Shown piece by piece: positions 10,062 through 26,235 of a DNA stretch of 39,148 nucleotides. This stretch comes from Collimonas silvisoli (lineage in GTDB: Bacteria > Pseudomonadota > Gammaproteobacteria > Burkholderiales > Burkholderiaceae_D). A model generated the notes under the pieces. The model had not been told where the DNA came from and searched no databases. It worked only from the letters and a program-made list of their open reading frames with translations. The first letter of the stretch is position 1. Each line of letters starts with the position of its first letter. Where the stretch lies: NCBI RefSeq assembly GCF_018305005.1, contig NZ_JAGQEG010000054.1, positions 1-39,148 of the forward strand, read 5' to 3'. A program made the translations under genes and the position numbers.

Positions 10062-10130
10062 CGTCATCCCCGCGAACGCGGGGATCCATGTTACTGACTA
10101 AGATGGATTCCCGCGTTCGCGGGAATGACG
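10062..10130. repeat. Paired dRS3-like hairpin element, copy A (recA-recX gap)
   Basis: Two 27-bp arms (10063-10089 and 10103-10129) lie in inverted orientation around a 13-bp spacer. Each arm is itself a hairpin. The left core is ATCCCC-GCGAACGC-GGGGAT and the right core ATTCCC-GCGTTCGC-GGGAAT. The left arm carries a paired T-to-C/A-to-G change that keeps its stem intact. The outer ends read GTC and GAC, the inner ends CCAT and ATGG. Confidence 0.93.
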
Positions 10131-12403: not shown

Positions 12404-13570
12404 ATGAAGATCCATGAGTATCAGGGTAAAGAAATTCTCCGCCAGTTCGGCGTGACAACACCGCGTGGCATCCCGTGCCTGAACGTCGATGACGCGGTCA
12501 AGGCAGCTGAAACCTTAGGCGGTTCGGTTTGGGTGGTAAAAGCCCAGATCCACGCTGGTGGTCGCGGCAAGGGCGGCGGCGTTAAAGTTGCCAAGTCGCT
12601 GGAGCAAGTGCGTGAGTACGCCAGCCAGATTCTCGGCATGCAACTGATCACGCATCAAACCGGACCAGAAGGCCAGAAAGTCCGCCGCCTGCTGATCGAA
12701 GAAGGCGCTGACATCAAACAAGAACTGTACGTCAGCATGGTGACTGACCGTGTCAGCCAACGCGTGGTGCTGATGGCATCCAGCGAAGGCGGCATGGACA
12801 TCGAAGAAGTAGCCGCCAGCCATCCAGAGAAGATCCATCAAGTGGTCATCGATCCGGCTACCGGCCTGACCGACGCTGAAGCAGACAGCATCTCGACCAA
12901 GATCGGCGTACCTGCCGGTTCCATCGCTGACGCACGCAAGCAATTGCAAGGTCTGTACAAGGCTTACTGGGATACCGATTCCTCGCTGGCTGAAATCAAC
13001 CCGCTGATCGTTACCGGTTCCGGCAAGGTTATCGCTCTGGACGCCAAGTTCAACTTTGACTCCAATGCGCTGTTCCGTCATCCTGAAATCGTTGCCTATC
13101 GTGATCTGGACGAAGAAGATCCAGCTGAAATCGAAGCTTCCAAGTTCGATCTGGCTTATATCTCGCTCGACGGCAATATCGGTTGCCTGGTGAACGGCGC
13201 CGGCCTGGCCATGGCCACCATGGACACCATCAAGCTGTTCGGCGGCGAGCCAGCCAACTTCCTGGACGTCGGCGGCGGCGCCACCACTGAGAAAGTGACT
13301 GAAGCATTCAAGCTGATGCTGACGAATCCGGGCCTGAAGGCCATCCTGGTCAACATTTTCGGCGGCATCATGCGTTGCGACGTCATCGCAGAAGGCGTGA
13401 TTGCGGCTTCCAAGGCAGTGCACTTGTCGGTGCCGCTGGTGGTCCGCATGAAGGGCACCAACGAAGAAATCGGTAAAAAAATGCTGGCCGACTCCGGCTT
13501 GCCGATCATCTCGGCAGACAGCATGGAAGAAGCGGCGCAGAAGGTTGTTGCCGCAGCTAACGGTCAATAA
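12404..13570 (+). CDS. sucC: Succinyl-CoA ligase (ADP-forming), beta subunit
   Basis: This 388-aa ATP-grasp subunit of the TCA-cycle enzyme makes succinate and ATP/GTP from succinyl-CoA, together with SucD. It begins with the invariant [17 protein letters not shown], continues through the nucleotide-binding region ([18 protein letters not shown]), and ends with the subunit-interface segment [17 protein letters not shown]. Length and motifs are normal. Ribosome site AAGGGAAG stands seven to eight bases before the ATG. In most relatives sucD follows within a few dozen bases. Here a 353-bp hairpin-bounded nuclease cassette separates the two genes. Confidence 0.99.
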
Positions 13571-13579
13571 TCTGAAAAA

Positions 13580-13932
13580 CGTCATTCCCGCGAACGCGGG
13601 AATCCATTTTACAGAATGCCAAGCTACGTTTACATGATGTCGAACAACTCGCGAGCTACGTTATATATCGGCGTAACTTCAGATTTGATCAAACGTACCT
13701 GGCAGCACAAAGAAGCTTTTGTGGATGGTTTTTGCGAAAAATACGGATTGAAAGCCTTGGTCTGGTATGAGATTCATGAAGATATTGCCGAGGCAATCAA
13801 ACGCGAAAAACAGCTGAAAAAATGGAATCGAATATGGAAAATTCATCTGATTGAACAATCCAATCCGAATTGGCAAGATTTATATCCCGGTTTATTGAAC
13901 TAACATGGATTCCCGCGTGCGCGGGAATGACG
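13580..13932. mobile_element. GIY-YIG cassette bounded by dRS3-like inverted hairpins
   Basis: The left arm at 13581-13607 and right arm at 13905-13931 are inverted copies of the dispersed repeat (cores GCGAACGC and GCGTGCGC within ATTCCC...GGGAAT). The 297-bp interior is almost wholly the GIY-YIG gene: the start codon lies 9 bases after the left arm and the stop codon ends one base before the right arm. Other copies of the same element in this window carry only a 12-18-bp spacer here. The cassette splits the sucC-sucD operon. Mobility is inferred from structure, not shown. Confidence 0.75.
13616..13903 (+). CDS. Small GIY-YIG nuclease (COG2827 type)
   Basis: This 95-aa single-domain GIY-YIG endonuclease belongs to the group often labelled as a predicted UvrC-like or YhbQ-related nuclease. 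The GIY strand appears as Y4-V-Y6 and the YIG strand as Y17-I-G19. R27 and H31 follow in LIKRTWQHK, and the likely metal ligand is E64 in IKREKQLKKW. The conserved tail NPNWQDLY closes the domain. No separate DNA-binding domain is present, so target recognition would have to come from the core or from DNA structure. The gene is more AT-rich than sucC and sucD. It has no clear Shine-Dalgarno sequence, and its ends abut the two hairpin arms. The family is well known; its role with these repeats is inference. Confidence 0.9.
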   Translation: MPSYVYMMSNNSRATLYIGVTSDLIKRTWQHKEAFVDGFCEKYGLKALVWYEIHEDIAEAIKREKQLKKWNRIWKIHLIEQSNPNWQDLYPGLLN

Positions 13933-13949: not shown

Positions 13950-14831
13950 ATGAGTATCCTGATCAACAAAGACACCAAAGTCATCACCCAAGGCATCACC
14001 GGCAAGACCGGCCAATTCCACACCCGCGGCTGCCGCGATTACGCGAACGGCAAGAACGCTTTTGTCGCTGGCGTCAATCCAAAGAAAGCCGGCGAAGATT
14101 TCGAAGGCATCCCGATTTTCGCTAACGTTTCCGAAGCCAAGGCAGCCACCGGCGCCAACGTATCGGTCATTTACGTTCCGCCGGCAGGCGCAGCAGCTGC
14201 AATCTGGGAAGCTGTCGAAGCGGAACTGGACCTGGCCATCTGCATTACCGAAGGCATTCCGGTACGCGATATGCTGGCACTGAAAGACCGCATGGCAAAA
14301 GCCGGCAGCAAGACTTTGCTGCTCGGACCGAACTGCCCAGGTCTGATCACGCCAGACGAAATCAAGATCGGCATCATGCCAGGCCATATCCACAAGAAGG
14401 GCCGTATCGGCGTGGTTTCGCGCTCCGGCACCCTGACTTATGAAGCAGTCGGTCAATTGACCGCACTGGGCCTGGGCCAATCGTCGGCAGTCGGCATCGG
14501 CGGCGATCCGATCAATGGCTTGAAGCACATCGACATCATGAAAATGTTCAACGATGATCCAGACACCGACGCCGTCATCATGATCGGTGAAATCGGCGGT
14601 CCGGACGAAGCCAATGCCGCTTATTGGATCAAGGACAACATGAAGAAGCCGGTGGTCAGCTTCATCGCCGGTGTTACCGCTCCTCCGGGCAAGCGCATGG
14701 GCCACGCCGGCGCGCTGATTTCGGGCGGCGCCGATACTGCGCAAGCCAAGCTGGACATCATGGAAGCATGTGGCATCACCGTGACCAAGAATCCATCGGA
14801 AATGGCGCGTTTGCTGAAGGCGATGCTGTAA
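13950..14831 (+). CDS. sucD: Succinyl-CoA ligase (ADP-forming), alpha subunit
   Basis: This 293-aa CoA-binding subunit is phosphorylated on the active-site histidine H252 in KRMGHAGALISGG. Other landmarks are the N-terminal CoA-binding segment TQGITGKTGQFHT (13-25), GPNCPGLITP (126-135) and the second signature SRSGTLTYEAV (157-167). AAAAAGGA precedes the ATG at good spacing. It should share a transcript with sucC, but the 379-base gap now includes two strong hairpins and a nuclease gene, so SucC:SucD balance may depend on read-through. An intrinsic terminator follows at 14900. Confidence 0.99.
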   Translation: MSILINKDTKVITQGITGKTGQFHTRGCRDYANGKNAFVAGVNPKKAGEDFEGIPIFANVSEAKAATGANVSVIYVPPAGAAAAIWEAVEAELDLAICITEGIPVRDMLALKDRMAKAGSKTLLLGPNCPGLITPDEIKIGIMPGHIHKKGRIGVVSRSGTLTYEAVGQLTALGLGQSSAVGIGGDPINGLKHIDIMKMFNDDPDTDAVIMIGEIGGPDEANAAYWIKDNMKKPVVSFIAGVTAPPGKRMGHAGALISGGADTAQAKLDIMEACGITVTKNPSEMARLLKAML

Positions 14832-16752: not shown

Positions 16753-16819
16753 CGTCATTCCCGCGAACGCGGGAATCCATGTTGACCTTAAAATAGATCC
16801 CCGCGTTCGTGGGGATGGC
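16753..16819. repeat. Paired dRS3-like hairpin element, copy D (FHA-pilA gap)
   Basis: The left arm (16754-16780) is canonical, with ATTCCC-GCGAACGC-GGGAAT. The right arm (16793-16819) has drifted to ATCCCC-GCGTTCGT-GGGGAT, with a paired change that preserves most of the stem. The spacer is 12 bp. Translating the reverse strand gives WIPAFAGMT, a peptide seen in many spurious annotations. Confidence 0.88.
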
Positions 16820-17151
16820 ACAGCTGCTTGCATCAAATGAATTTTATCGGACTACTAAGTCACGATAAATACCTGTTGCCCATATCGCAACGAAATTACT
16901 CTGTGATATGGCGTCATCTCGGAATTTAAGCTGAACGCCTGTTTCATTTGCCCTAGTAATCGATGAAACTAGGACACGTCTTGCCACATTTCATACGCTG
17001 GCGGTCACACGTGCGTCAGGTGTAGGATTAAGTCATCAACGACGAATAATCTTAGTTTCTTTGTGACAAACTTTGTCAGCGCAGCATCAAAAATCTGCCA
17101 AATTTCCTCACTTTCCCCATCGTGGATCTTTCAAAACCGGAGATTTTCCAC
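16820..17151. other. AT-rich pilA upstream region
   Basis: No coding sequence is seen in this stretch. It is AT-rich and leads to the sigma-54 promoter at 17152. The only clear structured site is the palindrome at 17064-17078. The length and composition fit an upstream activating region where a DNA-bending protein and an enhancer-binding activator would act. Confidence 0.5.
17064..17078. promoter_or_regulatory. Palindrome TGACAAACTTTGTCA, candidate PilR enhancer site
   Basis: This is a perfect dyad with 7-bp arms around one C, centred about 105 bases upstream of the expected pilA transcription start. TGTC-type half-sites are reported for PilR in Pseudomonas. The distance suits an enhancer for a sigma-54 promoter. 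Assignment to PilR is inferred. Confidence 0.5.
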
Positions 17152-19708: not shown

Positions 19709-19776
19709 CGTCGTCCCCGCGAAAGCGGGTATCCATTTTAAGTTCGACTTGGATTCCCGCTTTCGCGGGAATGACG
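19709..19776. repeat. Paired dRS3-like hairpin element, copy E (moaC-bepA gap)
   Basis: The left arm (19710-19736) has core GCGAAAGC and the right arm (19749-19775) has GCTTTCGC, which are exact reverse complements of each other yet differ from the GCGAACGC/GCGTTCGC pair of the other copies. The spacer is 12 bp. This shared change in both arms shows that they evolve together. Confidence 0.92.
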
Positions 19777-21360: not shown

Positions 21361-21385
21361 CGTAGACGTTTTTACTCTGTGGTCC

Positions 21386-21454
21386 GTTAAGTGGGGTCAG
21401 GGTAATTTTACGACGGTGAAACGTGTCGTAAAAAAAACTCTGACCCCACTTAAC
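21386..21454. repeat. REP-like palindrome, GGGGTCAGA type, copy 2
   Basis: This is a 69-bp inverted repeat with outer arms GTTAAGTGGGGTCAG and CTGACCCCACTTAAC (perfect) and inner TTTTACGAC/GTCGTAAAA. It lies between the convergent ends of bepA and the gene at 21454-22050 and may double as a bidirectional terminator. Copy 1 is at 208-274. Confidence 0.88.
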
Positions 21455-24741: not shown

Positions 24742-24767
24742 GTCATCCTCGCGTGCGCGGGAATGAC
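24742..24767. repeat. Solo hybrid dRS3-like hairpin, copy F (ilvE-pgk gap)
   Basis: A single hairpin begins with the left-arm outer end (GTCATCCTCGCG) and finishes with the right-arm outer end (GCGCGGGAATGAC). Both outer GTC/GAC ends are kept and both inner CCAT ends are lost. It looks like a paired element that collapsed by recombination or slippage between its two CGCG cores. Confidence 0.85.
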
Positions 24768-24944
24768 GCTGCTAGGTTTTAAGGCAGGTAAATTGACATT
24801 TTAACGGATTCGACGCGGCCTACTCTGTAGAATATTGGTCTCGCCGTGTGTCTTTCGAGAACCGCTATGTGCGCAAAACCATGTTTTGACGGAGGCTGCT
24901 GGAGTAAAATAGCGACTTTTCCTCACTGATATTGTCTGATCGAC

Positions 24945-26166: not shown

Positions 26167-26235
26167 CGTCATCCTCGCGAACGCGGGGATCCAGGTTGCA
26201 GCCTAAAATGGATTCCCGCGTTCGCGGGAATGACG
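26167..26235. repeat. Paired dRS3-like hairpin element, copy G (pgk-pyk gap)
   Basis: The right arm (26208-26234) is canonical, with core GCGTTCGC. The left arm (26168-26194) has decayed at two points (CCTCGCG and CCAG). The spacer is 13 bp. It fills much of the 171-bp gap between pgk and pyk. Confidence 0.9.

Follow-up and report, generated by a model that had tools for sequence, protein, structure and literature searches.

CGTC REPs are known from five bacterial phyla and consist of a CGTC tag, a stem of 8-9 bp, a loop of 4-5 nt and a CCA tail, mostly arranged as head-to-head dimers (Di Nocera 2013, PMC3733652, in the excerpts of the paper used here). According to the same excerpts, these repeats 'apparently lack a dedicated transposase', and no associated transposase was found (PMC3733652). 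The word GIY-YIG occurs 0 times in PMC3733652. The RAYT/REPIN system, as outlined in the excerpts used of PMC3116915 and PMC8266576, resembles the locus described here in layout, since in both one enzyme gene lies between palindromic repeats and is accompanied by many gene-less inverted pairs. The two differ in the enzyme, which is GIY-YIG here instead of a Y1/HUH transposase, and in the tag, which is CGTC instead of GTAG (PMC3116915, PMC8266576, same excerpts). The present cassette is therefore not a member of the RAYT/REPIN system, because no Y1 (HUH) transposase lies between its repeats.

GIY-YIG enzymes only hydrolyse DNA and cannot join strands. Our locus resembles the GIY-YIG homing endonucleases in the nuclease domain, in the apparent mobility of the gene and in weak matches to the group I intron endonuclease model TIGR01453, which were obtained for 19 of 42 relatives (best E 1.5e-5). 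Unlike homing endonucleases, the gene is accompanied by no visible intron or intein, and the hairpins, its putative target, flank it on both sides instead of being destroyed by the insertion. In Neisseria, a small GIY-YIG enzyme, Ssn, reportedly cuts single-stranded DNA at such a hairpin and is said to affect natural transformation, in a study in Nature Communications (2025). The cassette enzyme probably belongs in or near the Ssn site-specific single-strand nucleases, and its pairing with the hairpin has presumably already been published as the Ssn family; a mobile cassette with hairpin borders is not known to be part of that study. If so, the pairing of enzyme and target is established already, and the mobile-unit half is the addition here. 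What may be new is thus the sequence evidence for a mobile unit and a candidate driver for the CGTC REPs. Two Neisseria records hold homologues at 51-52% identity, which may or may not be the published Ssn. Our literature search, whose reach did not include the Ssn work, found no paper joining GIY-YIG with REP.

The window analyzed here comprises 39,148 nt of Collimonas silvisoli (assembly GCF_018305005.1, contig NZ_JAGQEG010000054.1, positions 1 to 39,148). The following features bear on the argument.

10062-10130: gene-less dimer, 15-nt spacer; hairpins at the same place in 1/11 genus relatives (G083 only)
12404-13570, + strand: sucC, host gene, upstream neighbour
13580-13932, + strand: whole cassette, 353 bp; block missing in 10 of the 14 genus genomes whose sucC-sucD gap could be read
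13580-13606, + strand: left arm, CGTC-tagged hairpin CGTCATTCCCGCGAACGCGGGAATCCA (CGTC tag, 8-bp stem, 4-nt loop, CCA tail)
13616-13903, + strand: GIY-YIG nuclease gene, 95 aa (PF01541 match, conserved residues, dN/dS)
13906-13932, - strand: right arm, same hairpin inverted with the tag outward, CGTCATTCCCGCGCACGCGGGAATCCA
13950-14831, + strand: sucD, host gene, downstream neighbour
16753-16820: gene-less dimer, 14-nt spacer; 4/11 relatives (two arms in G083 and G197, one arm in G061 and G186)
19709-19776: gene-less dimer, 14-nt spacer; 0/11 relatives at a score of at least 12, a decayed arm being visible in G195
24742-24768, - strand: single degenerate arm
26167-26235: gene-less dimer, 15-nt spacer; 5/11 relatives (two arms in G083, G117, G197 and G195, one in G186)

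The initial annotation had described a gene nested between inverted 27-bp hairpins, and this layout was confirmed: the 95-aa frame lies within the sucC-sucD gap, between inverted hairpins of 27 nt each. The distance of 9 bases given from the left arm to the ATG was also correct, and the stop lies 2 nt from the right arm instead of 1. Likewise, all four of the further hairpin pairs described in the window are present, with spacers of 14-15 nt when measured with 27-nt arms instead of 12-13. The pairing between the arms of the cassette reaches 32 nt at 94%, and each arm by itself folds, when computed as DNA, into an 8-bp stem with a 4-nt loop (-8.0 kcal/mol; z -2.8 and -3.2). By tag, stem, loop, tail and head-to-head dimers, the window hairpins belong to the CGTC REP superfamily. 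They share with the published repeats the tag, the 8-bp stem, the 4-nt loop, the CCA tail and the dimeric arrangement, and differ from them, as presented in the excerpts used, in that a GIY-YIG gene accompanies the hairpins (PMC3733652). With up to one mismatch, TCCCGCGNNNGCGGGNATCCA matched 81 times genome-wide, compared with 0 times for the reversed control; the hairpin repeats are not a product of chance. An RNA family was rejected, since the window between 9500 and 20500 gave no Rfam match at the gathering score.

The protein matched the GIY-YIG profile PF01541 at E 2.6e-12 (47.3 bits, compared with a curated cut-off of 22.6). In an alignment of 42 sequences, Y17, G19, H31, E64 and N83 were invariant and R27 nearly so; we take these six to be the core residues of the superfamily. 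A structure model of the 95-aa protein reached a pLDDT of 93.4, and the nearest folds were UPF0213 BH0048 (probability 1.00, E 1.7e-3) and Slx1 (probability 0.97), with no match at E 0.001 or better in the fold search. Slx1 is a branched-DNA nuclease. The small UPF0213/Slx1 group thus supplies the closest solved folds of the model, while a sequence search of solved structures gave no convincing match. By profile, core residues and fold, the protein is a member of the GIY-YIG superfamily. Across three genus members, dN/dS was 0.07-0.12, and the gene thus evolves under constraint. No NCBIfam model matched the window protein at E 0.001, and 33 of 72,556 plasmid records contained a match to it. 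A defence gene was rejected for lack of a PADLOC match at E 0.01. A phage gene was rejected as well: PHROGs gave no match at E 0.001, and none of 50,697 phage records matched at E 1e-5.

A comparison of empty and filled sucC-sucD sites had been proposed together with the initial annotation, for which a gene fixed at this place in all relatives would have been unfavourable. The cassette gene was found in 4 of 15 genus genomes (own included), each time between sucC and sucD, and was absent from the other 11. We located sucD in 14 of the 15 (none from G196), and among these 14 readable gaps, ten are 19-20 bp long without a repeat and the four filled ones are 375-399 bp (a second sucC-sucD pair of G061, with a gap of 4 bp, was left out). 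Thus, empty sites exist in 10/14 genus genomes and the gene is not fixed there. The hairpins are intact on either side of the gene, and the empty genus gaps contain neither a hairpin nor a remnant of one. Since one genome represents each species, this comparison is one between species and carries no within-species polymorphism. Comparison of these gaps indicates that hairpin, gene and hairpin form a block that is present or absent at one site. No target-site duplication was seen at sucC-sucD, at the window dimers or in Sphingobium, where the flanks are short and diverged.

One of the four genus copies (G102) is a pseudogene; this member has a 1.7-Mb genome, and its eroded cassette (L016) contains stops and broken arms. 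The copy of G132 is broken as well. Cassettes between sucC and sucD occur in three genera of the family and in one further betaproteobacterium. A quick protein tree hinted at repeated insertion at sucC-sucD, with the location changing state 5 times or more. This reading was dropped because the AU test did not reject a single clade for the sucC-sucD copies (p 0.54; 92 columns). Homologues also lie near other genes of the TCA cycle, namely mdh-sucD (L113), lpdA-zapE (L105), lpdA (L030, L139) and gltA-lpxB (L259).

Related cassettes were found at more than one site, and several of the comparisons show a similarity that stops at the hairpins. In G014 (genus g15), a related cassette lies downstream of an ftsK-like gene; the sucC-sucD gap of this genome is 12 bp, and those of the four other g15 genomes examined are 96-107 bp and contain no cassette. 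The similarity of this cassette to those of G083 and G195 extends over 358 nt at 80% and ends 1 nt (left) and 2 nt (right) from the outer arm ends, and its left similarity to the window copy runs 13 nt past the arm. The site beside the ftsK-like gene was unusable as an empty site: the four other members of its genus that were searched gave one match each at 73-74% identity, as does the other ftsK copy of G014. In G252, three copies with unrelated flanks share similarity that starts at CTTCGTCAT of the left hairpin; in two of them (L242 and L244) it ends at ATGACGAAG of the right hairpin, and in L243 the right arm is truncated near the contig end. These hairpins are longer and were positioned by eye, because the arm score does not fit them.

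Other copies share either more or less than the stretch from arm to arm. Two copies of G069, 98% identical, share 562 bp that extend 12 bp past the left arm and 74 bp past the right arm, and in G367 two copies on one contig are 91% alike over 743 bp, a length that goes far past the places where arms would lie. The copy pairs of G246, G437 and G590 are similar inside the gene region only, and the copies of G372 and G474 are so placed, close together, that they overlap in the compared stretches. When copy pairs were filtered (at least 75% identity, less than 900 nt, arms scored in both), 7 pairs passed; the similarity ends at most 13 nt from the arms in 3, is longer in 3 (G069/G121 type) and ends inside the arms in 1. 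Movement of the cassette as a unit is thus supported by the comparisons in which the borders fall at the arms, and not by the remaining copy pairs. Outside the right arm, five copies of genus g42 (L024, L027, L034, L035, L036) have a stretch in common that holds a motif close to TGAATGNCNGCTATGTAGAAC.

A site on Sphingobium plasmids, between fnrL and a response regulator gene, is filled in 7 records and has both flanks without the gene in 5; the sequence was read for four filled and five unfilled records. Among the unfilled ones, TomTYG64 contains a single fused hairpin that is CGTC-tagged at either end, and TomTYG74 has a less perfect form of this hairpin; such a structure would be expected if the gene had been lost by slippage between equal stem halves. 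TomTYG65 contains one untagged hairpin of another stem type, and TomTYG72 and S. herbicidovorans contain no hairpin. These unfilled sites may be either pre-insertion sites or remnants. Single hairpins, of which two are fused and carry a CGTC tag at each end, stand at L263, L264 and L266, at a site occupied by the cassette in sister plasmids.

A homologue was present in 40 of 195 family genomes (E 1e-6), mostly as one copy per gene-bearing genome, and a phylum-wide profile search (E 1e-10) found homologues in 110 of 398 genomes, with up to 6 copies each. Arms were counted when, in inward orientation and no further than 250 bp away, they had a structural score of 13 or more. The scoring was set after part of the data had been seen; at the three thresholds tried, 12, 13 and 13.5, both arms were found at 23, 19 and 19 of 50 family loci and at 42, 40 and 40 of the best 80 of 573 wide loci. 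The initial annotation would have been refuted by homologues that usually lack the arms, and this outcome did not arise, just as the gene was not fixed at sucC-sucD. At the reported score, one strict arm or more was present at 43/50 family loci and 54/80 wide loci (best 80 of 573), and two were found at only 19/50 and 40/80 (best 80 of 573); 7/50 and 26/80 (best 80 of 573) had no arm at this score. Control windows 700-1550 bp away scored in 1/235 cases for the family and in 2/429 for the wide set (best 80 of 573). The counts include a few loci with cut flanks and are probably lower bounds, since longer stems or loops (G252) and the opposite orientation (for example L152 and L166) are uncounted. 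Among 31 control loci with UvrC-type or other GIY-YIG genes, not one had CGTC arms on both sides, and two had one hairpin.

Comparison of the family genomes indicates that those with the gene hold far more CGTC hairpins. The median REP count was 55.5 in the 40 genomes with the gene and 0 in the 155 without it, and at least 10 REPs were found in 33/40 and 21/155, respectively (Fisher 1.5e-16). When gene labels were shuffled within genera, the observed value was reached in 0/5000 shuffles. Because the REP pattern was built from the hairpin of the own genome, genomes with other stem types are undercounted. In 19 of the 21 gene-less genomes with at least 10 REPs, all GIY-YIG matches lie in frames of at least 300 aa, and it follows that REPs persist, or spread, without the small enzyme. 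In the other two, G184 and G080, a small GIY-YIG frame is present (121 and 114 aa, respectively), with no CGTC hairpin nearby.

The two arms of a cassette are matched to each other. Left-right arm identity was 0.955 at 19 family loci, compared with 0.825 after shuffling (0/2000), and 0.899 at 40 wide loci from the best 80 of 573, compared with 0.762 (0/2000). In G590, the true left-right pairing alone among 120 attains the observed value; the same is true of G437 (1/6), and G246 (2/6) is uninformative with arms that are nearly alike. Further, distances between the proteins correlate with those between the hairpins (Mantel r 0.32, n = 59 loci, 0/2000). Hairpins matched in cis fit an enzyme that would read its own hairpin; the matched arms and the correlation of protein with hairpin could also stem from simple linkage. 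G590 has six homologues, five of which were fetched (L247-L251), with four stem types among their hairpins.

The own genome (241 contigs) contains a single copy of the cassette and two GIY-YIG matches, namely the cassette gene and a second match inside a UvrC-sized frame of 629 aa. It further contains 42 gene-less inward dimers (40 fetched places plus the window; two places gave none). In the relatives, the window dimers were scored at an arm score of at least 12, with one or two arms counted. By eye, many of the 14-16-nt spacers start with NNTT and end like CTAANA, and beside its arms the cassette starts with TTTTAC and ends with CTAACA. The dimers look as if they were cassettes without the gene, and the change could have gone in either direction. 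Flanks are common to 25 of 43 units, with the cassette among the 18 others. A MITE-like repeat with the ends CCTAATGCCGTTCAGTTARG encloses a hairpin dimer, and 11/42 dimers share its flanks (in G000: L206, L209, L210, L214, L220, L221, L224, L225, L228, L233 and L237), with the ends strongly paired in 7. The copy number of the dimers is therefore not all due to the nuclease. The earlier description of the dimers as non-autonomous derivatives agrees with the many fitting spacer ends and does not cover those 11. Alike dimers with 24- and 25-nt spacers were dropped as proof of REP copying, because they share flanks with the MITE.

We consider it somewhat probable, from the comparison of sequences, that the locus is a minimal mobile cassette of two inverted CGTC REP hairpins and one GIY-YIG nuclease that recognizes them. 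The nuclease would nick or cut the hairpin in single-stranded DNA, either on the lagging strand or on the incoming strand during transformation. Host repair might then copy the hairpin-bounded stretch elsewhere, by template switching or by annealing between hairpins; rejoining would fall to the host, since the enzyme itself can only hydrolyse. The copied stretch could be either the gene-bearing cassette or a short gene-less dimer, the latter acting as a non-autonomous partner. A wider reading is more tentative, and we hold it at slightly less than even: a mobile element whose sole enzyme is a hairpin-cutting GIY-YIG nuclease, and which spreads itself and its dimers without a transposase, may be the missing driver of the CGTC REPs and a second, independent origin of a REPIN-like system, with paralogues each reading their own hairpin. 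The interpretation offered at the outset was thus supported in part: some comparisons agree with a cassette that moves as a unit, some copy borders and the dimers within the MITE do not follow it, and the nuclease as the mover and a homing or gene-conversion mechanism are candidates.

The most serious competitor, which we regard as rather unlikely, is a hairpin nuclease tamed by the host for a cell function on REPs, such as the control of transformation or recombination, with the cassette moved passively by homologous recombination or transformation. The constraint on the gene (dN/dS 0.07-0.12), the single copy in most gene-bearing family genomes, the copies of G069 and G367 that share more than the arm-to-arm stretch, the tie to transformation reported in the Ssn work and the general inability of GIY-YIG enzymes to join strands all agree with such a role. 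However, arm borders at the unrelated G252 sites and across genera suggest a copying step at the hairpins, and the presence of up to 6 copies per genome and the absence of the gene from 11/15 genus genomes speak against a host function. The hairpins might instead be spread by another enzyme, a RAYT/Y1 or MITE transposase, with the nuclease as a passenger or parasite of the repeats; we judge this improbable. A Y1-type transposase gene is present in each of the 12 genomes searched, the paired ends CCTAATGCCGTTCAGTTARG and the flanks shared by 11/42 dimers point to a MITE, and 21 gene-less genomes have at least 10 REPs. Yet the Y1 genes also occur in G028 and G164, with 0 and 1 REPs, and gene presence predicts REP number within genera. 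Further, none of 12 Y1 loci (from 22 matches in 12 genomes) had CGTC hairpins on both sides, one having a dimer on one side, in agreement with the excerpts used of PMC3733652.

An old insertion followed by decay only, in which the cassette entered sucC-sucD long ago and the differences between species are losses, has in our estimate a low probability. It would account for the occurrence of sucC-sucD copies in an additional betaproteobacterium besides three genera of the family, for the single clade that the AU test did not reject and for the broken copies of G102 and G132. It is difficult to reconcile with the empty genus gaps, which lack a hairpin remnant such as the fused one left at some Sphingobium sites without the gene, and with the relative of the cassette at a different site in G014. 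A mobile cassette as proposed above may help to explain the spread of a repeat family without a known mover, and, if true, the proposal would suggest that an autonomous/non-autonomous pair of the REPIN kind can arise with an unrelated nuclease. The link between gene and hairpin makes the spread of CGTC REPs testable at the bench, where a protein of 95 aa and an oligonucleotide of 27 nt would suffice.

Two minor observations concern other repeats and the arms of relatives. In G083 and G197, some arms hold an inner insert (L052; CGCGGGCACCAAGGTGGGGAATCC is one example), which resembles a short template switch inside the stem. The window also contains another repeat, GTGGTCCGYTAAGTGGGGTCAGRGT, at 195-225, 208-274 and 21373-21403, with an inverted pair at 208-236/246-274, and a stretch similar to this repeat lies near sucD in G130.
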